Assembly (NCBI GenBank): GCA_016841825.1
Contig: JAENYK010000009.1
Coordinates: 62,001 to 126,000, forward strand
From: Halothermothrix sp.
Lineage (GTDB): Bacteria; Bacillota; Halanaerobiia; DY22613
Direction of reading: 5' to 3'
DNA: 64,000 nt
How positions within the stretch are numbered: position 1 is the first letter of the stretch; every line of letters begins with the position of its first letter. Position numbers and translations under genes: made by a program. The notes below the pieces were generated by a model, which worked only from the letters and a program-made list of their open reading frames with translations, did not search any database and was not told the DNA's origin. This document shows, piece after piece, positions 9,001 to 31,640 of the stretch.

Positions 9001-12000
9001 TACTGTCTGCCCGGCAACCTTCGGAAATTCTCTAAAAGAATTCATCGGTCGGATCTGTCGAACTGAATCGATCAGCCTGGTTTTGTCAAAGAGAGCATAC
9101 TCCCGAAGTTTCAAATTGGGATTAAGTGAGATCTGTTCTAATAGTCCGGCAAACTCCTCCATGATATATTCGATAGTTGATCTCTTAAATAGATCGATTC
9201 GATAATCACACTCGATGAAGATTCCATTCTCGTATTCACAGACGTATAACCCCAGATCATATTTCATAACATTGCCAATCTCCTGATGACGCTCTGCTAG
9301 TTCTGTTAGCTGGCCCTGACCACTGTGTTCAAAATTGAGCATATTGAAAAAGACAGAGGTAATCGTCGGCTGATGAGTATTGCTCTCAATTCCCAGTTCG
9401 TCTAATAACAGCTCATAGGGGTAGCTCTGATACTCAAGATTCTTTAAAGTGTTCTCCCGCACCTGAACAATCAGTCTGTTAAAACTCTCCTGCAAATTGA
9501 CCTGATGTCTAAAGACGACCGTATTCAAAAAGAAACCGATCAACTCTTTAACTGCATCTACTTCCCGCCCAGCCATTGGAACTCCGATCAGGATATCCTG
9601 CTGATTGGTCAGTTTTGTCAACAAAAGATTAAAGGCTGCCAATAAAATCATAAACATACTGGCTTGCTGCCGATAAGCTAACTGATGTAAATCGCTTTGC
9701 ACCTTTTTAGAGATGATTAGTTGATACGAGCTGCCTGCAAGATTATTTCGACGACTATTATATGGATAGTCAAAAGGCAGTTGGAGAGGAATTAACTCTC
9801 CCTGCAGATATTGATGCCAATAATTACGATGCTTTGCCAACAGCTCTCCGGTCAGCAGTTGATTCTGCCAGGCTGCATAGTCAACGTATTCCACCGGCAG
9901 TTCCGGTAATCTGACCTTTTGACCTGACAGTTCTGCGGTATACAGTTGTAAAAATTCCTGTTGGAAGATATCTAACGACCAACCGTCAGCAATAATATGA
10001 TGCATCACCAACAAAATTAAAGAATAGGTCTTAGCCAAACGAATGAAGACTACCCGGTATAAAGGGCCCTCTCCCAGATCAAAAGGAGTGGTAATCTGTT
10101 CGTTAATCTCCTTTCTGGCTGTCTGCTCCGGATCAGCCAATTCCTGCAGATCTATCAATTGATAGACAAATATTGCTTCCCGATCAATCCGCTGCTTAGG
10201 TTCACCATCTATGGCCACAAAAGTTGTCCGCAAACTACTATGCCGCTCAATGATCTGCTGACAGACCCGTTCAAAGGTCTCCAACTCCACTGTCAGTTCA
10301 AAGGGATAGACCTGGGCCAGATTATAGGCGATACTCTCCTCCTCCAGTTGATCTAAAATCCACAACCTTCTCTGGGCAGGCGACAGCTCATAATAGTCCT
10401 GAACAGGTAATCGTTGGATCTCACTCAAACTAGCTCCCTCTGCCCGGGAGATCAACTCTGCCAACTCTGCAATGGTTGAAGTTTCAAAGATAGCCCGCAG
10501 GCTGATCTCCACACCAAAAGTTTTGCGGATTTTGGAGACGATCTTGACCGCCTTTAAAGAATGACCTCCCAATTCAAAGAAATCCTGATCAACTCCAATT
10601 TGTTCAATTCCCAGAATCTCTGACCAGATCACAGCCAGTTCTGCTTCCCGCTGGTTGCGCGGAGGAATGTAGGTTCTATCTGTACTAACCACGTTCACCT
10701 CCGGTAATGCCCGATAATCAATCTTACCGTTGGTGGTCAATGGTAAGGCCGATAATGGGACAAAGTAAGAGGGAATCATGTAATCTGGCAGAGACCGATT
10801 AAGATATGACCGCATCTCGGAGACTGATAACTCCCGCTCAGAGACGATATAGGCACAGAGAAATCTACCATCGACGGCATCTCTGGCAACGACTGCAGTT
10901 TCTTTAATCTCAGGATGACGCATCAGATGGTGTTCGATCTCCCCAAGTTCCACCCGAAAACCTCTGATCTTCACCTGATGATCCCTCCGCCCCAAAAATT
11001 CCAGATTACCATCAGCCAAAAATCTTCCTAAGTCACCAGTTCGATATAGACGTTCTGCTCCACTTAAAAATTTATTGACCACAAAGGATCTGGCAGTCTT
11101 CCCGGGATTATTAATATAACCCAGAGCTACTCCTATTCCACCAATACACAGCTCGCCTGCTACACCCCGGGGAAGAATCTCTAAGTTCTCGTCAAGAACG
11201 TAAAAATAGTTATTATTTAGCGGTCGACCATAGGGAATACTGGTCTGGAACTCACTCACCTCTTCAATAGGATGATAGATCGACCAGACTGTTCCTTCTG
11301 TTGCACCTCCCAGGCTGATCACCTGTGCCCGGGGAAAGAACTGATGTAGTCTTTCAGGTAATTGAACTGGAATCCAGTCTCCACTCAAAAAGACCAGCCG
11401 AAGATCAGTCTGCTGAGAAGTAACATTTAACTCCTCTAACAGGTTAACCAGATGATTCATCGTAGTCGGCACCGAATCCCAGAAGGTGACCTGCTCTTCA
11501 ACCATCAACCGATATAACTCCTCCGGATTTTGTACCTGATGCTTATCTGCCAGAACAATGCTCGCTCCTGCTGCTAAAGTTCCAAAAATATCATAAACCG
11601 ACAGGTCGAAACAGACCGATGTAATAAACAGCAGCCGATCGTTTGAGCCAATCTGATACTCAGTATTCACCCAGTTGATCAGATTAACGGCAGAATGGTG
11701 GGCAATCATTACCCCTTTAGGCTCTCCCGTTGAACCTGATGTATAAATAACGTAAGCAAGGGCAGTCGAATCTTTAACCAACACAGGATTCTCCGTCGAA
11801 TAATGGGCCAGTATTTCTTCTTCCATAAGAATCATTTGAGGAAAATCAGTGACATCTGCTGCATCTACCAGCACTCCTTTAGCTGCAGAATTCTCCAGAA
11901 TATATCTTTTTCGGGCTGTGGGGTATTCTGGGTCTATCGGTAGATAGACTGCCCCGCTCTTTAAGATCCCCAGCAGTCCAATGATCTGCAAAAAACCTCT

Positions 12001-15000
12001 CTCTGCGATCAACCCCAGATGATCACCAGAGCGAACTCCCCGATCCCGCAGAAGATGTGCCAATTGATTGACTCGGGAATTCAACTCCAGATAGGTCATC
12101 CCTTCTCCACCATAGCTGACTGCAATAGCTTCGGGAGTTCTCTCCACCTGTTCTACAAATAATTGATCTATCGTCTTCACAAAGGGATACTCCGCCTGAG
12201 TAGCGTTAAAATCAAAGAGCATCCACCGCTTCTCTTCCTCTGAGATCAGATCAACAGCCCGTAAGCGTTCATCTCCGACCTGGGCAAACTTCTCTAAAGT
12301 TCGGATATACATCTGCAAAGCGGTGGCGATCTCCTGTTCAGCAAAATAATTAGGTGAATATTTGATCCAGGCCATAGCCGCCTGTAAAGTTTTGGAGAAC
12401 TCCAGATCGAATAGGGTATTAGTCATCTCGTTAGACTCCAGATCCAACTGCTCTTCACTCAAAACAATAGAATCTTTGGTAATCGTACTGGCAATATGAA
12501 AATCAGTAAAGTTAAATACTGTATCGAACAACGGATTCTCTGCACCGGCAGTCTCCCCCATCAGCTGAGCAATATCAGCCAGGAAAATCTCATGGTATTT
12601 AGCCTCAATCAGATATCCGGTCACCATTTTTATCAGGTCTGATTTGGTCAGTTCCTGATCAAAGTTCAGATAGATAGGGATCGTATTTAAGAAGCATCCC
12701 AGAATCTTATCTCCATCCTCTACTACCGGGCGATCATGGGTGACCACTCCTGTTAAAAGGTTCTTCTCGGTAGTGATGATACTCATCACGAATAGATAGG
12801 CACTCAGACAGAGATCCTTCAAAGAGCAGCCGTATACTTTTGTCTGGGTTTCTAATCTGTCCAGAAGCTCCTTGCTTAGATAGTGTTTATGCTTTTTCAT
12901 CTTAAAATAATTATTGATCCTCTTACCGCTGTAGTTAAAGGGTAGTTTACTCCTGGAATAGCCAGCCAATGTCCGTTTCCAGAATTCTCTGGTCTCTGTA
13001 GAAGCCTTTCTGCTCAGACCAATGGCCACATAGTCTTTATAATCAGACTGCAACTGCTCTAGCAGAACCTCCTTACCCTCCACCAGATCACTATAAATAT
13101 TGTGAAATTCTGACATTAAAGAGGCAACACTCCAACCATCGAGGATCGCATGATGGACGGTCATGATCAGCACAGCTCTGACCTCATCCAGTTGATAAAC
13201 CCGCATCCGCCACAGAACATCCGTATTCAGCACAAATTTCTCCAGCAGATCTCTCTCCAGATAATCTCTGATATAGGTCTGCTGAGCTTGCTGATCCAGC
13301 TGTCGAAAGTCTTCGATCTCCAGTGCAGGCGGCATTCCCGGCATAACCACCTGAATCGACTCATAAAACCGCTCTACAGGAAAGATTGTTCTAAAGATAG
13401 CGTGTTTTTCAACAATCATCTCCATGGTCTTCTGTAGCAGCCCAGCATCAAAGCGCTTAAAATCTATCTGGAAAACAAACTGATCATGATAGACTGGCTC
13501 ATCAGGACGTAAAGTCGTGTATAATAACATTCCCTGTTGAATTGGACTCAAAGGGAAGAAATCTACGTAATCATCAGGTAATAGTTCTGCTTCTGATGGA
13601 TCGGCGAGCACCCTCTCCTGCAATTCTTCGACCAGTTTTAAACCTCTTTCCAGATCATTCTCCCCTAATTCATCAGTCTGTTCTGAGATGAAGACAGCCA
13701 ATTCTTTAACCGTCTGATGAGTATAAATATCAGCAATCTGCAGGGAAGTCTCCAATCTCTGATTGATCTGATTGGCCAGGCGGACAGCTTTAATCGAATC
13801 CCCACCGATCTCTGAGAATTCATCATTCAGACCAACCTGCTCCAATTCCAGAACAGCAGCCCAGACCTCTGCCAGCCGACTCTCTAATTCTGTGGTCGGA
13901 GCAGCATATTCCCGCTTCTGGGCCAGACTGCTCAATGGATCGGGCAGAGATTTGTAGTTCACCTTTCCATTAGAAGTTAAGGGCATCCTCTCTAATGGAA
14001 CAAAGTATGCCGGCAGCATATAATCTGGAAGATCTGCTGCCAGAAATTCCTTCAATGCTGTAAGTGAAAAGACTTCAGCTGTGACAAAATAAGCACATAA
14101 ACTCTTATCTCCACCAACATCTTCCCGAACTATGACAACCGCTTCTGTGATTCCGGGAAACTTAAGCAGCCGACTCTCGATCTCCCCTAATTCAATCCGA
14201 AAGCCTCTGATCTTAACCTGTTTGTCGATCCGCCCCAGATACTCCATCTCCCCATTGGGCAAGAGTTTTGCCAGATCACCTGAGCGATACAGTCGCTCAC
14301 CTGTATGATATGGATTTTCGATGAATTTGAGGCGGGTTAACTCCGGACGATTGAGATAACCCCGCCCGACTCCCTCTCCGGCAACACACAACTCTCCCGG
14401 CACTCCCCGGGGAAGTAGTTTCAAATCCTGATCGAGAATATAGGTCTTCAATGTCGGAATCGGCGTCCCGATGTTGCTAATGTTCCCTGTAATCTCAGCA
14501 GCAGTAATCTCTTTAAAGGTAACATGAACCGTCGTCTCTGTGATTCCAAACATATTAATCAATCTGGTCTCTGGATATCGTTCTTTCCAGGCTTTGAGCA
14601 TTATTGGTTTTAGAGCCTCTCCCCCAAAGATCACATACTTAAGCTGTAGATCGCTACTCTCAGCCTTTAACTCTTCATGAATGAGGTTAGCAAAAGCAGT
14701 CGGAGTCTGGTTCAAAACCGTGACCTGTTCTGCCCGTAATACATGGAGATAACTTAAAGGATTCTGGGCAACGGCCTTTGAAATGATCACCAGCTTTCCT
14801 CCATAAAGCAATGCCCCATACATCTCCCAGACCGAGAAGTCAAAACAGTATGAATGGAACAGAGTCCAGACATCCTCAGAGGTAAAGTCAAATTGAATCC
14901 GTTCATTAACCAACAGCCTGACAAGATTACGATGTTCGATCAGACAACCCTTGGGACGTCCGGTTGAACCCGACGTATAGATGATATAAGCCAGATTATC

Positions 15001-16224
15001 GGGTGTATTCAGGACTGGTAGGTTCCCCTCATCACCGATGTACAATTCGGGAGTAATCTCTACCAACTGACCGGAAAATTCTACTCCAGTCACCAATCCT
15101 GAACGGGAGATGAGAAACTGAGTACCACTGTCTGCCAGCATATAACTAATCCGCTCTTCAGGATAGTCCGGGTCAATGGGTAAATAGGCTCCACCTGCTT
15201 TTAGAACAGCCAGAATGCTGATAACCATCTCTGGAGAACGTTCTAACAGTAGAGCAACAATTGTCTCTGGCCCGACTCCCAATTCCCGTAATCTCCAGGC
15301 TAACTGATTGGCCCGTATGTTGAGTTGATCATAGGTCAACTCCTGTTCTTCAAAAACTACTGCCGCCCGGGTTCCCTCTTTGATCACCTGTCTCTCAAAT
15401 AACTGCTGAATCGTCAACTCCCGGGGATAGCTGGCATCAGTCTGGTTAAAACTATGTAATAACTCCTTCCTCTCCCCGGCTGAAAGAAGCTCTATCTCCG
15501 TTAACTGAAGATTGGGATCTGCGGTGACTGCTGCAAAAAAACGAATCAGCTGCCCAAAGAAACTCTCGATAGTCTGACTTCTAAAGAGAGTAGGATCGTA
15601 TTCCCAATCTGTAAGAATGGCACTATCCGTTACCCTAAAAACACAGAGTAGAGGTGGAACTACATCTTTAATACACTCCCGATCATGCAAATTCTCCATC
15701 ATCACCAGCAGATCAGACAAAGGAAAACCAGAACTGCTCTGCTCTATCTCCAACAACTCTAACAGCTTAAAGAAGGGGAAACTGGCATTCTCATTAGCCT
15801 GAATAACCGTTTTTCGAACCTTGAGTAAAAATTCTTTAAAACTCTGTCGGGCATCCACATCTATCTTTAGTGTCAGAAGTTGATTGACATAGCTGGCCTG
15901 ATCTTTCTGTCTCGGAACAGGGGTGCCGATAATGACCTGGTCACTTCGGGTATACTTGTAGGTCAGATAAGCCAACCCTGCTACTATGAATAGATAAACT
16001 CCTTCCGCAGAGGCTTTACTCATCTTGATAATTACCGCTGCCAGGTGGTCTGGGAAGATCAGTTTTATCTTCTGATGCTGAGCCTGATCCTTTCCCGATC
16101 GGGGATAATCTGTTGGAAAATTGCAGGTAAGCAGATCAGCAGATAGCTGATTTAACCAGTACTCCTTCTCCCGATCGAACTTACCACTGGCCACAGCAAT
16201 ATTTAATGAATGCTTGTCCATCAT
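1..16224 (-). CDS. NRPS-6: giant five-module nonribosomal peptide synthetase with an E1/ThiF-like domain inside an A domain (3' end outside window)
   Basis: The frame is open from an ATG at 16224 to base 1 (5408 codons, no stop), so the C-terminus is missing. Order by approximate residue: half-C 1-265; A1 270-758 (pocket DFWNIGMVHK, Thr); T1 808 (GGDS); divergent C* 889-1328; A2 1349-1840 (DLYDFSLVWK, Cys-like); T2 1889; C 1942-2405; A3 2409-3221 interrupted by a ThiF-like domain 2455-2750 (pocket DAMHVGGVTK, unassigned); T3 3269; C 3323-3758; A4 3765-4248 (DILQLGLVWK, Gly-like); T4 4306; C 4365-4792 with HHxxxDA; A5 4798-5292 (Thr code); T5 5345; start of another C at the edge. Motifs seen include YTSGSTG-type A3 loops, GG(H/D/N)SLKA carrier sites and HHIIADG condensation sites. 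It is last in the visible operon, 85 nt after NRPS-5. A second ATG at 16221 is equally possible; the ribosome binding site is 6 or 9 nt away. Domain calls are firm; substrates are read by eye. Confidence 0.95.
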   Translation of the reverse strand, partial: MMDKHSLNIAVASGKFDREKEYWLNQLSADLLTCNFPTDYPRSGKDQAQHQKIKLIFPDHLAAVIIKMSKASAEGVYLFIVAGLAYLTYKYTRSDQVIIGTPVPRQKDQASYVNQLLTLKIDVDARQSFKEFLLKVRKTVIQANENASFPFFKLLELLEIEQSSSGFPLSDLLVMMENLHDRECIKDVVPPLLCVFRVTDSAILTDWEYDPTLFRSQTIESFFGQLIRFFAAVTADPNLQLTEIELLSAGERKELLHSFNQTDASYPRELTIQQLFERQVIKEGTRAAVVFEEQELTYDQLNIRANQLAWRLRELGVGPETIVALLLERSPEMVISILAVLKAGGAYLPIDPDYPEERISYMLADSGTQFLISRSGLVTGVEFSGQLVEITPELYIGDEGNLPVLNTPDNLAYIIYTSGSTGRPKGCLIEHRNLVRLLVNERIQFDFTSEDVWTLFHSYCFDFSVWEMYGALLYGGKLVIISKAVAQNPLSYLHVLRAEQVTVLNQTPTAFANLIHEELKAESSDLQLKYVIFGGEALKPIMLKAWKERYPETRLINMFGITETTVHVTFKEITAAEITGNISNIGTPIPTLKTYILDQDLKLLPRGVPGELCVAGEGVGRGYLNRPELTRLKFIENPYHTGERLYRSGDLAKLLPNGEMEYLGRIDKQVKIRGFRIELGEIESRLLKFPGITEAVVIVREDVGGDKSLCAYFVTAEVFSLTALKEFLAADLPDYMLPAYFVPLERMPLTSNGKVNYKSLPDPLSSLAQKREYAAPTTELESRLAEVWAAVLELEQVGLNDEFSEIGGDSIKAVRLANQINQRLETSLQIADIYTHQTVKELAVFISEQTDELGENDLERGLKLVEELQERVLADPSEAELLPDDYVDFFPLSPIQQGMLLYTTLRPDEPVYHDQFVFQIDFKRFDAGLLQKTMEMIVEKHAIFRTIFPVERFYESIQVVMPGMPPALEIEDFRQLDQQAQQTYIRDYLERDLLEKFVLNTDVLWRMRVYQLDEVRAVLIMTVHHAILDGWSVASLMSEFHNIYSDLVEGKEVLLEQLQSDYKDYVAIGLSRKASTETREFWKRTLAGYSRSKLPFNYSGKRINNYFKMKKHKHYLSKELLDRLETQTKVYGCSLKDLCLSAYLFVMSIITTEKNLLTGVVTHDRPVVEDGDKILGCFLNTIPIYLNFDQELTKSDLIKMVTGYLIEAKYHEIFLADIAQLMGETAGAENPLFDTVFNFTDFHIASTITKDSIVLSEEQLDLESNEMTNTLFDLEFSKTLQAAMAWIKYSPNYFAEQEIATALQMYIRTLEKFAQVGDERLRAVDLISEEEKRWMLFDFNATQAEYPFVKTIDQLFVEQVERTPEAIAVSYGGEGMTYLELNSRVNQLAHLLRDRGVRSGDHLGLIAERGFLQIIGLLGILKSGAVYLPIDPEYPTARKRYILENSAAKGVLVDAADVTDFPQMILMEEEILAHYSTENPVLVKDSTALAYVIYTSGSTGEPKGVMIAHHSAVNLINWVNTEYQIGSNDRLLFITSVCFDLSVYDIFGTLAAGASIVLADKHQVQNPEELYRLMVEEQVTFWDSVPTTMNHLVNLLEELNVTSQQTDLRLVFLSGDWIPVQLPERLHQFFPRAQVISLGGATEGTVWSIYHPIEEVSEFQTSIPYGRPLNNNYFYVLDENLEILPRGVAGELCIGGIGVALGYINNPGKTARSFVVNKFLSGAERLYRTGDLGRFLADGNLEFLGRRDHQVKIRGFRVELGEIEHHLMRHPEIKETAVVARDAVDGRFLCAYIVSERELSVSEMRSYLNRSLPDYMIPSYFVPLSALPLTTNGKIDYRALPEVNVVSTDRTYIPPRNQREAELAVIWSEILGIEQIGVDQDFFELGGHSLKAVKIVSKIRKTFGVEISLRAIFETSTIAELAELISRAEGASLSEIQRLPVQDYYELSPAQRRLWILDQLEEESIAYNLAQVYPFELTVELETFERVCQQIIERHSSLRTTFVAIDGEPKQRIDREAIFVYQLIDLQELADPEQTARKEINEQITTPFDLGEGPLYRVVFIRLAKTYSLILLVMHHIIADGWSLDIFQQEFLQLYTAELSGQKVRLPELPVEYVDYAAWQNQLLTGELLAKHRNYWHQYLQGELIPLQLPFDYPYNSRRNNLAGSSYQLIISKKVQSDLHQLAYRQQASMFMILLAAFNLLLTKLTNQQDILIGVPMAGREVDAVKELIGFFLNTVVFRHQVNLQESFNRLIVQVRENTLKNLEYQSYPYELLLDELGIESNTHQPTITSVFFNMLNFEHSGQGQLTELAERHQEIGNVMKYDLGLYVCEYENGIFIECDYRIDLFKRSTIEYIMEEFAGLLEQISLNPNLKLREYALFDKTRLIDSVRQIRPMNSFREFPKVAGQTVVKRFEEQVELYAERVAVKTNSGELTYRELNHLANGVAVQLLEQTDPRYRLSQQELIRYSRQMLIEGWGIAEQEKLKKTTVFVAGAGGSASPLITQLALLGIGKIIICDPDQVELSNLNRQFLHDESRIGMNKAYSAKLTVERINPGVEVAALSERITRENVAELVGEAAIIFDNVDQLEAKFVLSEYAVFKGIAQIISSMIDLNAYAAIFHTPYTPCFHCLYDRGKLQELAEIRRLRQGEQSANPVSSPALFLATGFVCNEAIKILLGIDQPAYNKYFLFNQRTASDLVHSDGYLAITYPFSQHFRAICKEQGFDWDEGWRGKFLEELDIWPDPDCPVCSQRVRPELTEASLEAAAVFQSELTEETVALLFGHGAEMIVGILAALKTGKIYVPLDPEYPVERLLFMLEDAGCSVLMTDDQNLALAKKLVKQGQGYLKLLNISSISLNPERVYPDLNLKIPPDQPAYILYTSGSTGQPKGVYQSQRNLLHFIRTYTNSLQISETDRLTLLSTYSFDAAIMDIFGALLNGAALYPYSIKENGHLQGLVQLLQDEAITIYHSIPTVYRYLIDSLTDETFSALRLIVLGGEAVWRQDVEAFKRFFSIEAILINGLGPTESTVTMQYLIDQETECTRAAVPVGKPVSETEVKLVDEDGNEVGVYGIGELVFQSSYLALGYWNRPELTKQVFKETGELRYYHSGDLGRLLADGNIEFIGRKDLQTKLRGYRIELREIETILEKHPEVHTGLAHLVDRADGEKELAVYYLPHKGAEIDEAELRGGLQAWLPDYMLPTYIVQLTEIPRTVSGKVDYRALPGADSREESSRVYTAPRSQLEIGLIRILQEVLGLEKIGIRDNFFELGGHSLKAVAFISRVFREMNLQIPLKQIFINPTIEELAEYAQGIIKSVYESIPVSPIRELYPASAAQRRLFIVSQLGTEQISYNLPAAFLISGELKRERLEEAFIGLIQRHETLRTSFELVDGELMQRVHQRVEFQLQTLQVFDKGMLAQVMDDFIQPFDLKTAPLFRVGLVEVGEEYLLMVDLHHIIADGTSQGILMQEFIRLYQGEELPPLRIQYKDVAVWQEEFMNSTLMQRQERYWLEVFSGELPLLDLPTDYPRPPIMSHRGERYSFKLSRELSAQLDQLVQKTGITLYMALLAAYNILLTKYTHQEDIIVGSPIAGRPHADLEPLIGMFVNTIALRNHPQSSSSVSQFLAEVREQALNGYEYQDYPFDMLVEKLDLRRDMSRNPLFDTMFVLQNIDGESINSELDFRAYQFAQRTTRFDLYLTAVEAGENLFFNLDYSTALFKAETTHRLANHLENIIAQMVRDPEILIGQIEILTPEERHCLLQEWNQTQVSYPEELSLSELFGRQVRARGQQTALVYADQSLSYQELNKKADQLARHLLKIGVQPEEIVGLMPERSLEMVVGMLGILKAGAAYLPIDPEGPIERLEYVLADSGVQVVLTQNRLIDQISTGQRVLAIDLTNDQLYRGETGNLVETQNGEQLAYVIYTSGSTGQPKGVMIEQRAVHNFIVGMTDLINFDPEQSIVSLTTISFDIFVLETLLPLISGLTVVIATPQEQLLPTAFNSLLMKHQIDIVQTTPSRMKVLISASNQLSALQTVKQILLGGEPLPESLLRELQALTTAQIYNLYGPTETTVWSTLEKLSGEGEISIGRPIANTQIYIVNPQQQLTPINVSGELWIGGAGLARGYLNHPELTTEQFIPNPFNSAGRVYRTGDLVRWRLDGKIEFLGRRDTQVKIRGYRIECGEIEARLLSHPAIQEAAVIDRADEAGDKYLSAFVVIRKDLNQELTLTELRSHLARTLPDYMIPSYFISLEALPLTVHGKLDYQGLPAIDTNLLIDRTVTAPRNPLEEKLAAIWTEVLGMTGIGINDSFFELGGHSLKATQILMKVYQQLQLEIPLGEIFYNPTIAQLAAYLQNLEQSYQKIERIAEQEAYPLSSAQKRLFMLNQLKGDDTRYNIPTVLKIEGELDVEQFRQAYQTLVQRHEILRTTFGFKNGEPVQIIHPVETGWLEYAVLSEAEIQCKLTEFVQPFDLQQGPLIRMGLYRVVDLHYLIVDLHHIITDAASNRILIEDFVRIYAGRDLAELKIQYRDFAVWQNQLLNSAKIEEQKQYWVEKFTGEIPLLELPTDYPRQRSLSLVGDRFYFDLDAELTGGLKQLAAEQQVTLYMSLLAIYNVTLAKYTGQEDIVVGSPIAGRSHPDLSRMIGMFANTLALRNRPIGSLTFVEFLQAVKENVLHAFENQDYQFELLVDSLDLPRDLTRNPLFETMLVLQDGAQGVKLSESGLQISPYLLANRTAKFDLTLQAMEVAEEISLGFEYRTDLFKPETIRRLAVHFTNIVREVVQDVDLRLAEIEMISPMEREFLLKGLIGEPVNYPTTATVNQLFKIQMEQNPDGIALVLNDEQLTYAELNQRSKQLAWLLRKKGVRPNQIVGLLTERSLEMVIGIIAVVKAGGAYLPIDPEYPRERIEYMLTDSKTGLLVSDEFRELNFPGEWIVLTDLAVAEKCGELPELNQPTDLLYIIYTSGTTGRPKGVMIEQRNLVRLFFNDQFQFDFSQQDIWTLFHSYCFDFSVWEMYGALLFGGKLIIVPRQIAQSPAEYRQLLVRERVTVLNQTPTAFYNLITEELQFGAGDLALRYVIFGGEALQPGRLKEWAVRYPETRLINMYGITETTVHVTFKELSAEDIQREISNIGRPIPTLTCWILDHNLRLVPGGVAGELCVGGAGLARGYLNRPELTAEKFIQHPYLPGERLYRSGDKVRLLETGELEYLGRIDQQVKIRGFRIEPAEIESQILTHPQIAETAVLVREDAAGQNELAAYLVTVEEISATELRAHLARTLPDYMIPGYFIRLPELPLTASGKLDRSALLTADSLLDSGRDYLPPTTLQEEKLVQIWSQILGVERIGVSDHFFELGGNSLKAVSLIGQVFKQMNVKVPLREIFEHPTVLGLANYIATAQKEVYRGIEPVELRESYPLSSAQ
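7980..8865 (-). other. E1-like (ThiF/MoeB/HesA family) adenylating domain inserted in an A domain of NRPS-6
   Basis: About 300 in-frame residues (roughly 2455-2750 of NRPS-6) carry the E1 signature set. These are RYSRQ at 2465-2469, the ATP loop GAGGSAS at 2492-2498, a DPDQVELSNLNRQFL stretch with arginine finger Arg2527, Lys2540, an acidic pair Asp2581/Asp2584, and two CxxC zinc pairs (CFHC 2625-2628 and CPVC 2744-2747). Family members adenylate a carboxylate, usually the C-terminus of a ubiquitin-like protein, a peptide (MccB) or tRNA t6A (TcdA). The domain sits between adenylation motif A1 (LTYREL, residue 2432) and A2 (LKTGKIYVPLD, residue 2793). That spacing is about 360 residues, against about 46 in the other A domains here. 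The usual downstream transfer cysteine appears absent. The family call is firm; the role in peptide synthesis is unknown. Confidence 0.9.
12235..13565 (-). other. Divergent condensation domain C* after the first Thr module of NRPS-6
   Basis: Residues ~889-1328 open with a PLSPIQQGMLLY motif instead of the SSAQKRLF wording of most C domains here, have VHHAILDGWS as active site, and carry GDKILGCFLNT and NPLFDTVFNFTDFH stretches. The only close partner in the window is the domain at 33410-34730, also placed after a Thr A domain and a GGDS carrier. The opening motif resembles C domains that take D-residues, yet no E domain lies upstream. Either a dual or a modified-residue (for example Thr dehydration) role is possible. 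Class not settled. Confidence 0.7.
15430..16224 (-). other. N-terminal half condensation domain (C-terminal lobe only) of NRPS-6
   Basis: The first ~265 residues match only the second half of a condensation domain: EYWLNQL, an IIGTPV stretch, the FKEFLLKV region and an NL/Tyr-Asp-Pro-x-Leu-Phe tail before the A domain. No SxAQ opening motif and no HHxxxDG site precede them. The preceding protein, NRPS-5, already ends in a complete C domain, so this half is surplus to catalysis. NRPS-4 starts the same way. It may act as a docking or structural lobe. The alternative is a decayed C domain, but retention in two proteins argues against simple decay. Confidence 0.75.
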
Positions 16225-16230
16225 CTCGAT

Positions 16231-16236
16231 CTCCTT
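16231..16236 (-). promoter_or_regulatory. Ribosome binding site of NRPS-6
   Basis: On the minus strand AAGGAG is followed after 6 nt by an ATG (16224) and after 9 nt by a second, adjacent ATG (16221). Both spacings work, so the two starts cannot be separated by sequence alone; the upstream one is used here. Confidence 0.7.
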
Positions 16237-16267
16237 TCTGTTTGCCTTAAGGTATGTTTGAAAGCTG

Positions 16268-16301
16268 TGCAGAGACCCAGAGCTATTTCGGGGACTCTGC
16301 A
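16268..16301 (-). other. Intergenic stem-loop between NRPS-5 and NRPS-6
   Basis: TGCAGAG at 16268-16274 pairs with CTCTGCA at 16295-16301. After one mismatch a second short stem, CCC 16276-16278 with GGG 16291-16293, extends it. It lies in the only gap longer than 15 nt inside the big operon (85 nt). No run of U follows on the minus strand, so it is not a standard terminator. It could mark an RNA processing or stability site. Confidence 0.45.
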
Positions 16302-16309
16302 GCCTCTTT

Positions 16310-19300
16310 TTAAAAATCGAAATCCACTGCACCAAGTCTGGTATTCTCTAACTTCTGAACATTGGTTCTCAATTCAATCTCACTAAGCTTGCACTGTCTC
16401 TGGTCTACTATTACCCGGAGTATCTGCAGATAATCTGCTGCCAGCTGTTCAATAGTAGCCCGTTTGAACAGGCGAGTTCGATATTCGAAATTAAAATAGA
16501 TACCAGCTGATGTCTCGACAGCATTTAGTGTTAGGTCAAATTTAGCCAGCTTATTCTCAAATTCAATCGAAGTAAAGGTCAGATTGTTCTTACTCACCTG
16601 TGGGTTATCAATATTCTGTAGAACTAAGACAACATCAAAGAGTGGATTGCGACTGAGATTCCAACGTAATCCCAGTCTTTCAATTAATTTTTCAAATTGA
16701 TACTCTTGATTCTCAAAAGCCTGTAAAGAGTTCTCTTTCACTTCATCGATAAATTCTGCAACCGTCTTCCATCCCCGGGGTGCATTCCGCATAGCCAGGG
16801 TGTTGACAAAGATACCAATGATCTCTTCTAGCTCTGGACGCGGTCTGCCGACAATAGGTGAACCAACCACCACATCTTCCTGACCGGAGTATTTAGCCAA
16901 TAAAATATTCAAAGCAGTGAGCAGAATAATATATAAGGTCGCCCCCTGTTCTTTAGCCAGTTGAAGAATCTGATCTTTCAATTCCCGATTGGTCTGGAAA
17001 CGATAATCTGCTCCTTCAAAGCTCATTAATTCAGGACGCGGAAAATCGATCAACTGATCAGCCTTTGGCACAGGGTCAGCAAAACGCGTCAACCAATACT
17101 CCTCCTGTTCAACAGCTCTTTTAGAAGCCAGAAACTGATTTTGCCAGACCGCAAAGTCCCGATACTCAAGGCTCAGTTCAGGTAGGGGTTCTTCTGCATA
17201 TAAGCCGATAAAATCCCGGATCAGCACTGCAAGTGATCGACCATCTGAGATAATATGGTGGATATCCCAGAGGAAGAGATACCTCCCCTCCAGTTCTGCC
17301 AGAGCTGCCCTAAAGAGTGGAGCTTGATTTAAGTTAAAGGGTCTAACAAACTGTGCCATCACCTGATCGATAGAGTCGGTGACTGGTTTAATGTCTTCCA
17401 CAACAAAATCGACTGATTCGTCAATCTGCTGAACCGGTTCGCCATTCACTAGCTGAAAGGATGTTCGCAATGCTCCATGCCGTTTGACCAATCTCTGACA
17501 GGTCTCCGAGAGACGTCTGGGATCCAGATTCCCTTCAATCAAAATCGCTCCCGGCATATTGTAAGCGGTCTGCTCACCTTCCAGTTGGTTCAAGATAAAT
17601 AATCGCTGCTGGGCAGAACTGAGAGGGTAATACTCCCGGGTCTCAACAGGAACAATCTCCGAATAGCTCTGCCGCTGAGATTTTTCAATATGACAGGCCA
17701 ACTCTTCAATCGTGGGAGAGCGAAAGATCTCCCGTAAGGCTAGCTCTACTCCCAACTCCCGATAGACCCGTGAGACCACCTGGGTTGCTTTTAGCGATTG
17801 ACCTCCCAGTTCAAAGAAATTATCTCCGACTCCGATGGGTTCAACCCGTAAAATCTCTGACCAGATCGCTGCTAACTTTGCCTGCAGTTCAGTTGTCGGC
17901 CGCCGATATTCCCGCCCCTGCTTAATCTCTACCGCAAGAGTAGTCAAGAGCTGCCGATCGATCTTACCACTTGTAGTTAAGGGCAGACTGGTTAACTGAA
18001 CAAAATAAGCAGGAATCATATAATCTGGCAGCACCCGTGCCAGATAACCCCGCAGTTCACTAATCTCCAGCTCTCTTTCAGCAGCGTAGTAAGCCGCTAA
18101 GGAGATAGTACCTGTCTGATCAGTCTCTGTAGTTACCGCCACCTCTTTGATCAGACCATGATTTAACAGTTGGCTCTCAATCTCTCCCAGTTCAATCCGA
18201 AAACCTCGTACTTTTACCTGCTGATCCTTCCGTCCCCGAAACTCAAGATTACCGTCGGCTAACCATCTGGCCAGGTCTCCGGTTCGATACATTCGTGCTC
18301 CCGGGACAAATGGATCTTCAGCAAAACTCTCTGCGGTCAACTCAGGACGCTGATAATATCCCCGACCAACGCTTTCTCCAGCGATATACAGCTCACCGAC
18401 AACCCCAATCGGCTGTGGTCTGCCCTGTGGATCGAGAACATAGATCCGTGTATTCTCGATGGGCTTGCCGATGGGGGGCAGCTCCGGAATCGCTCCCCGG
18501 AAGTCAGCTGTCCAGCTTGTCACCACATGGGTCTCAGATGGGCCATAGTGATTGTGTAGATAGACCTGATTTTCCTGTAAATATCTTCTAAAGGCGTCAT
18601 TGACGATTACCTGCTCCCCGGCAGTCACGATATGCTTTACATTCCCGGGAAAGCTGCGTAGATACTCAGTATCGGTAAAGATGAATTTCAGAATTGCCAT
18701 TGGTAAAAAAAGAGTCGTTATCTCCTCGGTTTCAATCAACGAAAACAGTGCCGGCAGATTATCCCTGATCTCCTGAGAGATCAGATAGAGCTGACCGCCA
18801 GTTAGTAAAGTTGAGAAGATCTCCTGAGCAGAGACATCAAAGCTGATGGTTGTAAATTGGAGCACCCGGGAGAAATCAATATTCGTCTGCCGAAACTGAA
18901 AGTTCAGCAGATTTACCAGATTCCGATGTTCGACCATCACGCTCTTCGGTCTGCCTGTAGAACCAGAGGTAGAGATCAGATAGAGTAAGTCATCACAAGT
19001 ATTGCTCTCAGAAGGATTAGATACCACTTCTCCTCTGATCTCATCCGCCTGAAGATCGGTCAACAGCAGTTCTACCGATAGTTCTGTCCAGTCAGTACTA
19101 TTGAGCTTGACTACTTCCTCGTTGGTTAACAGGAGTCCAACCCCCGAATCCTCCAGCATCAGTTTGATTCGGTTTATCGGTAGTTCCGGATCGATGGGTA
19201 AGTAAGCACCACCCGCCTTTAGAACAGCCAAAATATGAATAATCAGCTCTGGTGAACGTCTGAGCATAATGCCAGCTATCTGTCCGACACCAAACCCCTG

Positions 19301-22300
19301 ATGGCGGAGAAAATGGGCCAGTTGGTTTGCCCGTTGATTCACTTCCCGATAACTCAACCTCACTTCTGCAAAAACCAGGGCAGTCTGCCCGGGAGTTTTC
19401 TCTGCCTGTTCAGCAAAAAGCTGATGAATCGTTCTCCTCAGCATCCCATTCCGGGAAGAATCAAAAGTCTGCCCTACACTGACCCGATTGAATCCCCAGA
19501 TCAGTTGTTCTCTTTCCGGCTCTGAGATCATTTGAATCTCCTGCAGTCTACTCTCTGGATTGGCGATCACCTCGTCGATGATCTGCAGAAAATGCTGAAT
19601 CAGCCGCTCAATGGTCTCCCGTCGAAATAGCTCTGTCGAATAATCTAACTCAAAGATAATGCCATTATTGGTCTCAAAGGCATCTAACAATAGATCAAAT
19701 TTAGCTGTCTGATTGGCAAATTCAAAAGGAGTAATTTTCCCCTCCTGATCTGCTTCCAGCACAGATCTGGCTGTATTCTGCAAGGCAAACATGGTATCAA
19801 AGAGTGGATTACGACTGAGATCTCGTTTCAGATCCAGCCGATCCACTAACATCTCAAATTGATAATCCTGATTCTTAAAAGCCTGCAGTGCATTCTCTTT
19901 GACCTGTGCTAAAAACTGCACAAAGGTCTCATCTCCCCTGGGTTGATTGCGCATCGCCAGAGTATTGGCAAACATCCCCATGGTCTGGGCTAACTCCGGA
20001 TGGGGACGACCGGCGATGGGGGTTCCAACAATGATATCTTCCTGAGCAGTATATTTAAATAACAGAAGATTATAGATCGCTAATAAGATCATATACAGGG
20101 TAGCACCCTGCTGAAAAGCCAATTCTCTCAACTGATGGGTCAGCTGTTCACTTAAATTAAAGCTGACCCGTTCTCCGAGAAAACTCATAACCGCCGGTCT
20201 GGCTCTGTCTGTTGGTAGATTGAGTACTGGGAGTTCGCCTTTAAAATGTTCTAGCCAGTATCTCTCCTGACGTTTGATCATCTCAGAAGCAAAGAGCTTA
20301 TTCTGCCAGATGGTAAAGTCCTTGTATTGAACTTTCACCGGTAATAGCTCTTCGCCGACAAAGAGACGACTGAAATCTGCCAGCAGAAGGTCAATCGATG
20401 TTCCATCGGCTATAATATGGTGTAGATCAAAGATCAACAGAAAACGTTTTTCTGCAGCTTTAACCAATCTGGCCCTAAATAATGGTGCCTTGCGGAGATT
20501 AAAGGGCCGAATAAACTCAGCGATCAGTTCTTTAAACTCTTCTTCCTTCCCTTCCAGATATTCCAGTTGGAATTTTAGATCTGGATGAACCCGCTGAACC
20601 GGTTCGCCATTGACAAACTCAAAGGAAGTTCTCAGGGATTCATGACGTTCAATCAACGCCTGTAATACTCCCTCTAAATACTGATGATCCACAGTTTCGG
20701 TTATCAGCATCGCACCGGGAATATTATAAGCTGTTGTCTGTTCTGATTCCAGCTCATTTAAGATGAATAACCGTTTTTGAGCAGAAGAGACAGGATAAAA
20801 CTCCCGGAGCGGGACCAACTCGATTGATGTATAAACTGCTTTCTCCGCTTCCAGAATATATCCGGCCAACTGCTCAATAGTTGAAGATTGGAAGACCTGA
20901 ATTAACGAAATATCAACATTAAACTCTTTATAGATCTGTGCTGCCAGATGGGTTGCACTCAGTGAGTGACCACCCAGGGCAAAGAAGTTATCATAAATTC
21001 CAATATTTTCAGCCTTAAGACCAAGAATCTCTGCCCAAATCCTGGTTAACTTTCTGCCAATCTCATCAGTCGCTGCCACATATTCGGTACCAGTGTTAAT
21101 CCGCCCATCGAGAGCCGGCAATGCCTGACGATTAAGCTTACCATTGACAGTAACCGGCAGTCGATCCAGGGGAATAAAATATGCTGGGATCATGTATTCT
21201 GGAACCTTCTCTCCCAGATATTCCCGCAGCTGCTGAACAGTCAGTTCAGTTTTAGTAACGATATAGGCAGTCAAGGACTTATTGCCAGTAGTATCAATCT
21301 GAGCAATCACAGCAACTTCTTTAATCGCCCAATGGGTTAATAGTTCTGCTTCAATCTCTGCCAATTCGATCCGATAACCGCGAATCTTCACCTGCTGGTC
21401 AATTCGTCCCAAAAATTCAATATTCCCATCAGCTCTCCAGCGTACCAGATCACCGGTCCGATATATCCGTTCACCCGGAATATAAGCTAAAGTGGTATAT
21501 TTTTCTGCCGTTAACTCTGGCCGATGCAGATATCCCCGGGTCAGTCCATCACCGGCGATACACAACTCCCCTGGAACACCAATTGGTGCTAAATTCCCCT
21601 GGCTATCCAGAACATATATCCGATAGTTGGCGATGGGTTTGCCGATGGGAAGCTGTTCCATGAAGGGATTAGTGCATTTGTAGTAGCAGGCACAGACAGT
21701 TGTTTCTGTTGGCCCATAGGTATTATAGACATCACCCCGGCGTAACAGTTTGGTGATATATTCACTTTTTAACACATCTCCACCACTGATATAGGTGTAG
21801 ACCGAATCCAGTTCGGGTAGGTCATTTAACTCATTGAGCAGCAATGGTGAGCAGCTGATTAGGGTCACACTATGGGTTTGAATCGTCTCCACTAATAGCT
21901 CCAGATCAATGGTTTCTGCTCTGGGGAAGATCACTACCCGTCCACCGACTGTTAAAACCGGATAGATCTCTTCAACAGAAGCATCAAAGGAGAAAGATCC
22001 CTGCTGCAAGACCACATCGGAGGAGTTTAGGCGAAACTCTGTGTTAAAGGCATGGATATAGGCGGCCAGGTTACCATGTTCTACCATGACCCCTTTGGGT
22101 TTACCAGTTGATCCGGAAGTATAGATTATATAAGCCAGATGACTACTATCAGCTGCAGTAACCAGATTAGCTCCATCGCCTGAATACAGGGTTGGCTCTG
22201 TGAGATCAAAGATCTCAGCCGGATACTCTAATTCGGGCAGTTCTCCCCGACGGGTAAGGGCGAATCTCACCTGACTGTCGCGCAGAATGTACTCAATCCG

Positions 22301-25300
22301 CTCTCTGGGATATTTAAGGTCGATGGGTAGATAAGCTCCACCCGCTTTTAATACTCCCAACATCCCAATTACCATCTCCAGGGATGGTTTTACGATCAGA
22401 CCAAGCGGTTCATCAACCTGCAGACCCTGTTCTCTTAAATAGATCGCCAGTTGATTGGCTCTGGTATTTAGCTCCCCATAGGTCAACTGCTGATCCCGGT
22501 AAATCAGAGCAACACTATCCGGTGTCTTCAATGCCTGCTCTGCAAAGAGTTGATTGATAGTTTTTGTTTTCTCATATTCACTGGTTGTCTGGTTAAATTG
22601 ATAAAGAATCCGTTCCTTCTCCTGAGTTGAAAGCAGTTGAATCTCTGAAAGTTTGATCCCCGGATTAGCAACCACTTCCCCGATCACCTGTCGAAAGTGC
22701 CGGGCAAAACGCTCTATCGTCTCTTCGGTGAACAGTTGGGTTGCGTACACCAGATTGAAGCCCAACTTTTGATTAAACTCATGTCCGCCGATCATCAGAT
22801 CAACCTGGGCTGTCTTATTTTTTATCGAATATGATCTAAACTCTAGCTCTCCTAATCCAATCTGCAGCTCTTCAGTATTCGGTTGGTCTATGTTCTGAAA
22901 GATCAAGAGTGCGTCAAATAGTGCATTGCGACTCCAATCCTTTGCCACACCCAGTTTGTCAATTAACATCTCATACTGATACCCCTGATAGTCAAACGCC
23001 TGTAAAGTATTCTCTTTGACCTGGGTCAGAAATTCAGCGAAGCTTAAACCGCCCGTAGGTCGATTGCGTAACGCCAGGGTATTGATAAAGACTCCCATAG
23101 TGTTTTGCAGATCGGGATGAACTCTACCCGCCACCGGAGTTCCGATGACAATATCTTCCTGGCCAGAATATCTGGCTAGTAAGATATTATAAATGGTGAG
23201 GATAAAGATAAAGAGAGTTGCCTGCTCTGCTGCGACTAACTCCTCGACCTCTCTTGTCAGTTCTTCATCCAGTTCAAAATGGATCTGCTCTCCCCGATGG
23301 TCAAGGTTAGCAGGACGTTTAAAGTCAGTCGGCAGATTCAGTTGGGGAATCTCATCGGCAAATTGACCCAACCAATACTCTTCTGCCGCTCTAATCTCCC
23401 AACTCTGCAGGTAGTCTTGCTGCCAGAGAGTATAGTCAGGATACTGCACCCCGGGCTCTGCTAACTCTGCTCCTCCGTATATCTCGATCACCTCCCGGGC
23501 CAGAATACCCATGGAGACACCGTCGGAGATAATGTGATCCATATCGTATAAAAAGAGATACTCTTCTGCTGTAAGTTTTACCACCTCCACTTTTAACAGC
23601 GGAGGCTGACTTAAATCAAAGGGCTGCACAAAATCTTCAATAATCTGTTCTTCAGTCCGACCGGCTGCTGCACTATACTTAATCCGAAAACGAACATTCC
23701 GATAAACCCGCTGCAGGATCTGATCATCCTTAATCTCAAAACCGGTTCGCAGGGCTGCATGACGCCCAATCACCTGTTGAAACGCTTTCTCCAATCGCCG
23801 AATATCCAATTTACCAGTGATCCGGATTATCTCCGGCATATTTAAACTGACCTGACCGGCGATCGTCCGCAGCATATAAAAGCGTTTCTGAACGTAAGAG
23901 GCTGGATAATACTCCCGCTCCTCAAAATGTTTGATCTGAGTAAAATCTTTACGTCGGTTCAGATAGATAAAGTGAGCTAATTCTTTGATCGTCGGCCGTT
24001 GGAAGATCTCTTTTAGCGGAAGTTCTACCCCAAACTCCTTAAAGACTTCCAGCACAACCTTAGTCCCTTTTAGTGAGTCACCTCCCAGGGCAAAAAAGTT
24101 GTCATTCAGACTGATCCGTTTCTGATGAAGAAGACTGACCCAAATCTGGGCTAACCCGGCTTCAATCTCATTGGTCGGAGCAATATATCTCCTCTCTTCG
24201 CCAATCTCTTCCGGGATTGGTAAAGCCTGAAGATTTACTTTTCCCGAAGATGAAAGGGGAAACTCTTCCAGTTGAACAAAATAGGCAGGAATCATATAGT
24301 CCGGGAGTTGTTTTGCCAGAAATGTTCGCAACTCACCAGTAACCAGACGTTCTCTGGCGACTATATAGGCACATAGATAAGGTGTACCCAGCTCATCCCG
24401 GGCAATTACCAGGACATCGACAATTGATTGCTGGCTCAACAGGATATTCTCAATCTCCCCAGGTTCAATCCGATATCCGCGGATCTTCACCTGTTGATCT
24501 ATTCGTCCAAGGAATTCGATCTCTCCATTAGCCAACCATCTGGCTCGATCACCTGTCTTATAAATGGTCAGCTCCGGGAAATAAGGGTTGGGAACAAATA
24601 ACTCTGTCGTCAGTTCAGGACGATTAACATAACCCCGGGCCAGCCCTGCTCCTCCGATGTACAACTCTCCGGGAACTCCAATAGCTACCAACTGCTCATA
24701 TTCATCAAGGATGAATACCTGAGTATTGGCGATCGGTTTACCGATGCTAACTCTCCTCTTCGGTTGTAAATCCAACTGAGCTGTGGCCATCACACTGGAT
24801 TCTGTTGGCCCATATTCATTAATTAAGCGTATCTGGGGATGTTTCTGTTTACACAGCTCGACCAGATGAGAACTGACCTGATCACCACCCAGAGCAACCA
24901 CTCGAAGAGTAGCTAACTCTCCCGGTGCTGCAGCTTCCAGAACTCCGACAAAGAGAACAGGAATACAATTAAAATTGGTGATCTTTCTGGAAGCAATAAT
25001 CTTTTTCAGTAACAATACATCCTGAGCTTCCTCCTGAGTTGGAATAACTATCCGTGCTCCGGAGACCAGCGGTGTAAAGAAATTAATCATCGATGCATCA
25101 AAAGAGAAAGAAACTATCTGCAAAACCCGATCCGCCGGGGTGAGTTCAAATGTAGTTTTTCTCCACTGAACTGTATTAACGATGCCCCTATGTTCAGTCA
25201 TCACCCCTTTTGGCTTCCCGGTCGAGCCCGAGGTATAGATGATATAAGCCAGTTGGTCAGGCTGAATCTGTCTTTCAGGCAAGTCTGTTAGTTCAGCTGT

Positions 25301-28300
25301 AGAGAATAGCGGATCATCCAGATCGATAGTCTGAATACCACTCTGCCTACCACTTTTAAATTGATTATTCTGGAATGGATCTGGGTTGAGCACCAACCGC
25401 ACAGCACAGTCTTGTAGAAAATATTCTATCCGTTCCTCTGGATAGGATGGATCGATGGGCAGATAAGTTCCCCCAGATTTCAGGATACCCAAAATACCTA
25501 TTGATAAGTTTAGAGAACGTTGGGTGATTAATCCGACCACCTGCTCAGATACTACCCCCCGTTGACGAAGAACTTTGGCCAATTGATTGACCTTCTGCTC
25601 TAACTCCCGATAGGTCAATTGGCTATCCTGGAACTCCACAGCAATTGCCTCTGGAGTCTGTTCTGCCTGTTCTGTGAAGAGTTGATCCAGCGTCTTCTGG
25701 GGTGAAAATCTCTCTTCTGTCTGATTAAAGGAGATCAACAGCTGGGTCATATCCTCTTTAGACAGCAGTGAGATCTTTCCGATCAACTGCTCAGGTTGTT
25801 CTACAATCTGCACTAAGATCGTCCGGAACTGCCGGGCTAATCTCTGCATAGCTGCCGGAGTAAAAAGAGCGGTACAGTATTCGATCATACAACCTAAACC
25901 CCCCTGATTATTCTCCCAGACTGCCAGGGTCAGATCGAATTTGCTTATCTTCTTGTCAAACTGGACAGGTTTAAACGATAATCCAGACTCCAACTCTTCA
26001 TTAAAAGGCAGATCCATATTTTGTAAGACCAACATCGTATCAAATAGTGGATTACGACTCAGGTCACGCTGTAAGGACAACTCCTCCAATAACAGCTCCA
26101 GAGGGTAATCCTGATGTTCATAGGCCTGTAAAGTTCTTTCCTTAACCTCTGTTAAAAACTCAGTAAAGCTTTTAGTCCCCACAGGTTGATTGCGCAGTGC
26201 CAATGTATTGACAAACAATCCAATGATCGGTTCCAAATCAAGGTGAACTCTCCCGGCAATCGGTGAACCCACAATGATATCATCCTGAGCTGAATATTTG
26301 GCCAGTAGGATGTTATAAGCAGCCAACAGAACCATAAATAGTGTTGCCTTTTTTTCTGTTATCAACTGCTCCAGTTTATCTTTTAACTCACTATTAATCT
26401 GAAAATTATACCTGGCGCCTACAGAACTGCGGATAGCAGGACGCAGAAAATCGGTCGGTAATTCCAGAACCGGAAGTTGACCGGCAAAGATCTCCTGCCA
26501 ATAAGTCTGCTGTCTTTGCATCAATCCAGAGACGAACAGTTCATTCTGCCAGACCGCAAAATCTTTATACTGAATCCGCAGATCTTTCAGAGACTGGCCT
26601 TGATAAAGTTGGATAAACTCTTTAATTAAAATCTCCATCGACATCCCATCAGAGATGATATGATGCAGATCATACAGGAGCAGCCAGTCCCCAGGTCGCT
26701 TCACCAGACTAACTCTTAATAAAGGAGGCTGGCCCAGGTCAAAAGGCTGGATAAAGGACTGTAACAGCTCTTCCAGTTCAGCTTCCCGATCTAACTGTAA
26801 AATCTGAACAGCAAAAGAGACCTCCCGATGAATCCTCTGCATTGGCTCTCCATCCACAAAGGTAAATGACGTCCTTAAAGCTTCATGGCGTTTAATTAGC
26901 TTTAGAAATGCCTCTTCAAGACGATTGAGATCTAAATCTCCCCGGATCTCCATCATCCCCGGCATATTATAAGCCAGATCGACTTCCTTTAACTGATGCA
27001 GAATCAACAACCGTTTCTGAGCCGAGGAGACCGGGTAATACTCCCGTTGATCAGCCTGCTCAATCGGTGGGTAAAGCTGAACTTCACCATGCCCAATCAT
27101 CAACGCCAGCTCCCTGATCGTCGATCGGGCAAAAATTTCCTGCAGTGGTAGTTGAGTATCAAACTCTTTGAAAACCCTTGCTGCAAGACGGGTAGCTTTC
27201 AACGAATGACCTCCCAGAGCAAAAAAATCATCGGTAATCCCGATCTGTTCAATCCCCAGAAGCTGTGACCAGATTTCTACCAGACGTGCTTCCACGTCAT
27301 TGGTCGGAGCCACATATTCACGACTGCGTTCCAGATTGTCTGTCGGTTCTGGCAAAGCTTGCAGATCAACTTTCCCATTATCGGTTAGCGGAAGTTCTTT
27401 TAAACGGACAAAGTAAGCGGGCAGCATATAATCGGGTAACTGATCTGCAAGACTCTTCCTAATCTGATCAATGGGCAATTCCTGCTCTGAGACCAGATAA
27501 GCGGTCAGGAATTTATCTCCTGTCAGATCTTCCCGATCAATTACTACCACATCTTGAATCTCAGGAATCTTTAAGATCTGTTTCTCAATCTCAGCCAGCT
27601 CAATCCTAAATCCTCGAATCTTCACCTGACGGTCTATCCTACCCAGATACTTTAACTCACCTGAAGCCAACATCTGTACCAGATCCCCGGAACGGTAGAG
27701 CCGTTCTCCTGGAATATATGGGTTAAAGACAAACTTCTCTGCAGTCAGTTCCCCACGGTTTAAATAGCCCCGACTAACTCCCAAGCCGCCGACACATAAC
27801 TCTCCGGGAATCCCCCAGGGTAACAGTTCCAGGTTAGCATCCATCACATAAGCACTCAAGGTAGGAATTGCTTTACCAATATTGCTGACGTTCTGTTCAA
27901 TCTCTTCTGTGGTAATCTCTTTATAGGTGACATGAACTGTTGTCTCGGTAATTCCAAACATATTGATCAATCTGGTCGATGGATATTTATTCCGCCACCC
28001 CTTGAGCATCAGTGGTTTTAGTGCTTCTCCGCCAAAGATTACGTATCTAAGCTGAAGATCCTTATCTGCAGTCTGCAGATCTTCCATACTCAGATTATAA
28101 AAAGCGGTGGGAGTTTGATTTAAGACAGTCACTCCCGTCAATTTTAAGAGCTGTAAGAACTCTGTCGGGTTCTGAGCAGTAAGTTTGGGAACAATCACTA
28201 ATGTTCCTCCATAGAGTAGAGCACCATACATCTCCCAGACTGAGAAGTCAAAAGCACAGGAATGAAATAAAGTCCAGACATCAGTTTCACAAAAATCAAA

Positions 28301-30220: not shown

Positions 30221-31640
30221 TGATCTTCCTCCTTATCTTCATCTAACGAATCCAGAACTGACGATACGTAGGCAAAATCCTCCAGAGACATCTGTTGATA
30301 CCCGACATCACTGGGGGTTAGTTCCTGTTCAGCGGTGCTGCAGTGCCGGATAATCCTCTCCAGATTGTTTTGAAAGCATCCAGCCAATCTGTGAATAGTC
30401 GCTGTTTCATACTGATAGCGATTATATCCAAAAGAGACTGTCAGTTGGTCTTCCCGAATCATTCCAATAATATCCAACAGATATTTCCGTTCAGAACAGA
30501 GACTGCGCGCCTGTCCTGACGGAAAGTTAGAGATGCTAAAGACTGTCGAACTCTCCCGTAATTCCTGATCAAATTGACCCAGATAGTTAAAACAGACCTC
30601 TGGATATAGTCCAAAGTTGATTGCCGGGTTGGCTTCCTTTCCTGTTAGATATTTTAAAACTCCATAGCCGACTCCTTTTCCGGGAATCTGGCGGAGATTC
30701 TCCTTTACTTTTTTAATCTGATAAGCCATATCTGAGGTATGGGAGCTATCCAGAATCACCGGATAGACAGTAGTAAACCAACCAATAGTCCGGGAAATAT
30801 TAATCTCTGCAGAGATCTCTTCCCGACCATGACCCTCTAAAGCCACCGCTATCTTCTCCAATCCACTCCAATCCCGGACAGCGAGACCCAGTGCAGTCAA
30901 GAGAATGTCATTGATCTGGGTATGATAGACCTGATTGGTCTCCTGTAACAATCGTCGGGTATCCTCTACCGACAGAGAGATCTGAATACTCTGAGCGTCA
31001 CTCAGCCGATCCTCGACAATCTGCTGATCTACTGGCAGTGATCTCACCTCTGTCTGTTCAATCCTCTGCCAATATTTTATTTCCCGGAAAATCTCCCCGC
31101 TTTGGGCATAGGATACCAGAGTGTTAGCCCACTCTTTGAAAGAATCTGTCTTCTGCGGAAACTTAATGGCTTCACCCTGCAAGGCCTGTAAGTATCCTGC
31201 GGCAAAATCTTCAAAGAGAATCCGCCAACCGATACCATCCATAACCAGATGGTGAACAATTATCAAAAGATGATCTCCCACAGGGGTTTTGAACAATCCC
31301 AATTTAACTATAGGCCCGTTGAGTAAATCAATACTCTCCTGCAGACGAGTGGCTGTACTATCGACAAACTCCTTATCTGTGGCCTGACACTCGAAGACTT
31401 TTAATTCATAGAGATCCCCTTCTAAACCTCGATTAATCTGTCTGATTCTGTCTCCAGCTTGCTGAAAGACCATCCGTAAGGCGTCATGATGTTCAACAAT
31501 TCGGGTAAAGACCTGTTCAACTATAGCTTGATCAAAGCCTTCTTGACTATAAATCAGTACAGAGTGATTATAATGATGTCGATCTGTTCTCGTCTGTTCA
31601 AAGAAATAGTGTTGAATGGGAGTCAGCTCTACTTCTCCCA
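30217..31640 (-). other. Epimerization (E) domain of NRPS-4
   Basis: The domain has VHHLVMDGIGWRIL (nt ~31234-31254), EGHGRE, RTIGWFTTVYPV, PGKGVGYG and FNYLGQFD, which are E-domain core motifs in order. It follows a GGDS carrier protein, the usual partner of E domains. It would convert the carrier-bound Asp/Asn residue to the D form. It is the only E domain in the window. Confidence 0.93.

Follow-up and report, generated by a model that had tools for sequence, protein, structure and literature searches.

The window, by which we mean the whole 64-kb stretch of DNA that was analysed, carries a cluster of NRPS genes, all on the minus strand. Two of them encode donor subunits that finish with a complete C (condensation) domain and then a putative Phe-x-Phe docking tag. 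NRPS-5 (16310..30220), of composition (C-A-T)4-C, ends in ...RLGAVDFDF, the tail LGAVDFDF and its stop codon occupying 16310..16336 (stop 16310-16312, F-D-F 16313-16321), with Asp as the middle residue x; NRPS-3 (37402..46878), of composition (A-T-C)3, ends in ...SELDAEFNF, the tail ELDAEFNF and its stop occupying 37402..37428 (stop 37402-37404), with Asn as x. The proteins encoded after them would be the acceptors of these tags: NRPS-4 (30217..37386, halfC-A-T-C-A-T-C) for NRPS-3, and the last NRPS of the cluster (1..16224), which extends past the window, for NRPS-5. The latter probably starts at the ATG at 16224, which is preceded by the RBS GAAAGGAGATCGAG, rather than at the listed TTG at 16335, which overlaps the NRPS-5 tail (window 16224-16335). 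NRPS-2 (46871-51319) and NRPS-4 end instead in acidic tails devoid of Phe-x-Phe, LLDDLEDE and LDSLDEDKEEDQ (DEDKEEDQ), respectively, and are followed by proteins that start with an A domain and with a full C domain. The sequence-only reading had pointed out the Phe-x-Phe ends of NRPS-5 and NRPS-3, the half-C proteins directly downstream of these two genes and the acidic tails at the A and full-C junctions; translations and stop positions bear out the first, matches to the C model the second, and the acidic tails are as described. At the start of the cluster, a KS protein (window 51322-54510) has a basic ARRRRN tail and is followed by an NRPS with a full-C start, possibly another charge-based junction.

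A half-C consists only of the C-terminal lobe of a condensation domain, without the lobe that carries HHxxxDG. The C model built in this analysis has 434 positions, with HHxxxDG at 129-135; the C-domain matches of the proteins that follow NRPS-5 and NRPS-3 cover about 171-434 and 166-434 of it, and all nine half-C heads of the window's genome begin at position 163 or later, so that the N-lobe HHxxxDG motif of a catalytic condensation domain (PF00668) is absent from all of them. The half-C of the last NRPS (15457..16224 if counted from the probable ATG), a putative receptor made of the C-lobe only, scores 324 bits against its own model and 211 bits in a leave-one-out comparison. The half-C of NRPS-4 (36619..37386), likewise a putative receptor, has a predicted C-lobe fold with pLDDT above 90, and the best Foldseek hit of its model is a full C domain (TomBC, 8qnf). 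AlphaFold models were made for two junctions as single chains comprising the tail, the read-through linker and the half-C, with stop codons replaced by Gly. The half-C folds are confident (pTM 0.84 and 0.88), and the first model has full C domains as its best Foldseek hits; the Phe-x-Phe itself is below pLDDT 50 and unplaced in both tethered models, and in the second, the part of the tail that precedes the motif (residues 1-10) reaches a mean pLDDT of 70. Judged against 155 ordinary C domains of the same genomes, half-Cs have conserved residues of their own: YKQ where the ordinary domains have AGR, the His of an ENIHD motif, and Phe and Arg where they have Ala and Glu. A third half-C head touches the window (63262..64000, minus strand) and belongs to a gene that starts beyond it (C18:118284-126263), in which a full C domain comes next. 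The partner of this head (donor C18:127845-145649) ends in T, not in C, and has the tail EEEFDF; this T-ending donor, together with a half-C followed by a full C, indicates that a half-C can also occur away from a C|A boundary.

In the window's genome, which has 114 C-domain matches, nine proteins start with a half-C, and the proteins upstream of them end in LEFEF, ISFNL, VDFDF, AEFNF, EEFDF, GDFVF, GDFDF, TEFDF and TAFSF. All nine partners thus end in F-x-F or F-x-L, and the strict F.F$ pattern is present on 8/9 of them vs 1/43 other megasynthase ORFs (p=1.1e-7). Related tails, KFTF, IFEI and EFIM, are found in the same genome on T-ending NRPSs (C2:342359-348838, C30:133104-145925, C2:128914-141855) that have no half-C partner and precede KS proteins with a short leader.

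The pair recurs in seven Candidatus Aminicenantes-family MAGs and in one Clostridia MAG. Since conservation in a profile of the nine half-Cs was nowhere high enough for scanning genome collections, these were searched with a sub-alignment of the region around ENIHD, which detected half-C heads in Ca. Aminicenantes MAGs. Three of these (G399-G401) contain 81 distinct half-C heads, mostly in halfC-A-T-C proteins, and the upstream gene, where there is one, ends in F.F$ for 40/76 heads. When the partner of the half-C is an NRPS/PKS, an aromatic-x-hydrophobic end is present in 38/46 cases vs 3/16 other junctions (p=8e-6), with the reservation that many Aminicenantes sequences are paralogous, so that raw p values overstate independence. 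In the Clostridia MAG (G602), an F-x-F tail precedes 6/11 half-C heads, with a plausible adjacent partner in 6/6; the remaining five are apparent first genes, located after a gene that lacks NRPS domains or after a thioesterase-type end. In a follow-up set, which added four more MAGs of the Aminicenantes family and further loci of G602, the aromatic motif is present on whatever gene lies upstream for 25/34 half-C heads; among the upstream proteins with a C-type domain at their end, 13/13 have a hydrophobic-x-hydrophobic tail and 10/13 an aromatic-x-hydrophobic one. In these large searches the score covers the top few candidates per genome; at that depth, 399 genomes of the window's own phylum gave no match except the window's genome itself, the Clostridia MAG was the sole match among 399 genomes of its phylum, and a Sporosarcina-centred set, which shares genome labels with the latter, gave 0/300 matches. 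A comparison of tails and heads in related clusters had been named beforehand as the test of the proposal; the pairing held in eight other genomes belonging to two other lineages, and the tail/head association is therefore observed in three lineages.

The sequence-only reading had gone further and proposed that Phe-x-Phe tails are docking motifs specific for half-C starts. The specificity is strong but not absolute: a DFGF tail precedes a full C domain (L180), A starts are preceded by a QFGF and two YEF tails (L193, L134 and L248), and three exceptions are the KS junctions of the window's genome. The Y-E-F tails before A-start proteins occur in two genomes (L134, gene at 6365, reversed strand; L248, gene at 11976) and are possibly a sub-code for A heads. 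In some cases (L069, L166, L168 and L172) the half-C protein is the first gene of its cluster and has no tagged neighbour; its partner may be encoded elsewhere.

The comparison of related clusters also revealed covariation of tail and half-C at the level of single residues. Features of the tails were scanned against the columns of the half-C model in about 2,530 tests, from which the top column was chosen; the best signal links an acidic middle residue of the tail to Lys/Arg at column 70 of this model (hN). Lys/Arg occupies this column in 25/42 half-Cs facing an acidic x vs 7/58 facing another residue (p=7.7e-7), the corresponding figures being 4/5 vs 0/4 in the window's genome, 14/24 vs 5/36 in the discovery Aminicenantes set and 7/13 vs 2/18 in the follow-up sets combined (p=0.017); the last-added loci alone show only a trend (5/11 vs 2/14, p=0.18). 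Phylogenetically independent pairs of the discovery set score 6-0 and 7-0 in favour of the covariation. Weaker signals at columns 116, 84, 215, 134 and 68 came out of the same scan, and our conclusions do not rest on them. Within the window, column 70 is a Lys in the half-C of the last NRPS (16015..16017, minus strand), the predicted partner of the acidic x of VDFDF, and a Gln in that of NRPS-4 (37177..37179, minus strand), matching the uncharged x of AEFNF. The matched variation of donor tail and acceptor head that characterizes docking domains is thus present, and from these residue patterns a direct contact between tail and half-C is likely.

These observations lead us to propose, with a probability of roughly 80%, that the Phe-x-Phe tail and the half-C form a new class of NRPS docking pair. 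In the model that we infer, which includes direct binding, a binding groove and an order of events, the last residues of the donor, usually [D/E/G]-[D/E]-Phe-x-Phe-COOH, would bind the half-C at the start of the acceptor, the half-C, a condensation domain of which only the C-terminal lobe is left, acting as a non-catalytic receptor. Since a complete catalytic C domain usually closes the donor and the acceptor reads halfC-A-T, the split in the synthetase falls between C and A. The half-C would take the place of the C domain beside A and would bring the C domain of the donor to the loaded carrier of the acceptor. The pair occurs with donors ending in C or in T, and with A or C after the half-C. 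Reconstitution of a split C domain from a half-C and a free N-lobe was rejected: the C domain that closes most donors is complete (model 1-426), and no free N-lobe turned up, the sole N-lobe fragment (C41:210002) being an ORF truncated where the analysed stretch stops.

Two other explanations would account for the association without docking at the half-C. The half-C might be a structural relic, a cap by which the usual C-A platform of the A domain stays folded after gene fission, and the Phe-x-Phe tails would be leftovers of ancestry that do something else, such as sealing the donor's own C domain. This would fit the presence of A after the half-C in every Aminicenantes head with a visible next domain, and a truncated, probably inactive C* domain does exist in the thermoactinoamide synthetase (PMC7253712); however, T-ending NRPSs and radical-SAM enzymes without a C domain are also tagged, one half-C precedes C rather than A, and half-Cs both have conserved residues of their own and covary with the tail, which makes this explanation unlikely. 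Slightly less likely still is that Phe-x-Phe is a general subunit tail that binds the A domain, the KS or a common scaffold, its correlation with half-Cs resulting from shared operon ancestry. The F-x-F or Y-x-F tails before A or full-C heads (L180, L193, L134 and L248) and the F-x-F/I/M tails before KS heads speak for it; against it, the tail is strongly depleted at other junctions of the same genomes (the 1/43 and 3/16 given above) and covaries with a half-C residue.

It is highly improbable that the proposed docking pair belongs to a known docking class (COM helix-hand, SLiM/beta-hairpin domain or PAX helices). The closest likeness is with the SLiM/betaHD pairs (TubC, EpoB, Kj12B-C), in which a short linear motif at the C-terminus of the donor, acidic and hydrophobic as here, meets a receptor at the N-terminus of the acceptor (PMC9113145); in Kj12, binding is confined to the last five residues and involves complementary charges (PMC9113145). 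The donors described here do carry such a short C-terminal linear motif, but with Phe-x-Phe at the extreme C-terminus, and they mostly end in a C domain with the cut between C and A; the receptor is not a small alpha-beta-beta-alpha-alpha domain with a beta-hairpin, nor a helix bundle, but a condensation C-lobe of about 250 residues, as identified by profile, AlphaFold and Foldseek. In COM pairs the acceptor surface is also part of a C domain, but it is a hand formed by alpha1, beta1, beta3 and beta4 at the start of that domain (PMC9113145, PMC12402864), elements that are missing from half-Cs, none of which starts before C-model position 163 in the window's genome. The COM donor is an amphipathic helix at E/C junctions, whereas the motif here appears to be a short tail rather than a helix; donors of the present pair end in a C-type domain (the C model built here does not separate E from C-type), end in T, or are radical-SAM enzymes. 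Another non-catalytic recruiting platform of the C family is the X domain of glycopeptide NRPSs, which recruits P450s, and the structure 4tx3 of an X domain is among the Foldseek hits of a half-C model. The X domain, located towards the end of the assembly line, has both lobes in full, and no C-terminal peptide motif is known for it. The C* of the thermoactinoamide synthetase, compared by description only, resembles the half-C in being truncated and probably inactive, but no docking role or tail motif has been described for it (PMC7253712). In literature that takes in few of the subscription journals, searches on C domains that are partial, truncated or halved, and on the NRPSs of Aminicenantes, returned no docking role, and no description of a half-C docking domain was found there.

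The tag is not restricted to NRPSs. In Aminicenantes, many genes located between an NRPS and a half-C protein encode B12-binding radical-SAM proteins, with tails such as GDFGF, GDFVF, AEFDF and IDFEL; among those tested, two are PhpK-family proteins above the NCBIfam cut-off and two others best match BchE-like models, below the cut-off. Tagged B12-binding radical-SAM proteins and a U32-peptidase-like protein lie at L147:980-2689, L145:599-2302, L106:888-2585, L111:812-2500 and L109:14425-17329. Since radical-SAM proteins have no C domain, a shared C domain cannot explain the tails, and these B12 enzymes could use the same half-C socket as the NRPSs. In the window's genome, four NRPS proteins have a half-C at their C-terminus, after the last T domain (C14:11549-21256, C14:92215-95973, C14:124036-129564 and C30:125072-132868; L012-L017, L027). 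Profile comparison relates this set to the head half-Cs with 98% probability, and after each C-terminal half-C comes a KS protein whose N-terminal leader is unusual (SLGLKVSL, KFLNFDID, SLNLSEYDL, SLELNNLQL), possibly a mirror image of Phe-x-Phe docking. A broader role of half-Cs in tag addressing is a tentative extension that we hold at somewhat less than even odds: Phe-x-Phe would recruit free tailoring enzymes (B12 radical-SAM, U32-like) as well as upstream modules to one socket, and in a mirrored version a C-terminal half-C would take the hydrophobic-x-hydrophobic leader of a KS.

If the Phe-x-Phe tail and the half-C do form a docking pair, they would add one more class to the NRPS docking domains and would explain how synthetases split between C and A keep their order. 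The order of partners in very NRPS-rich genomes would then be predictable from the tail residues and one receptor residue, and the pair would provide a small tag and receptor for joining modules, or for recruiting radical-SAM enzymes, in engineered lines.
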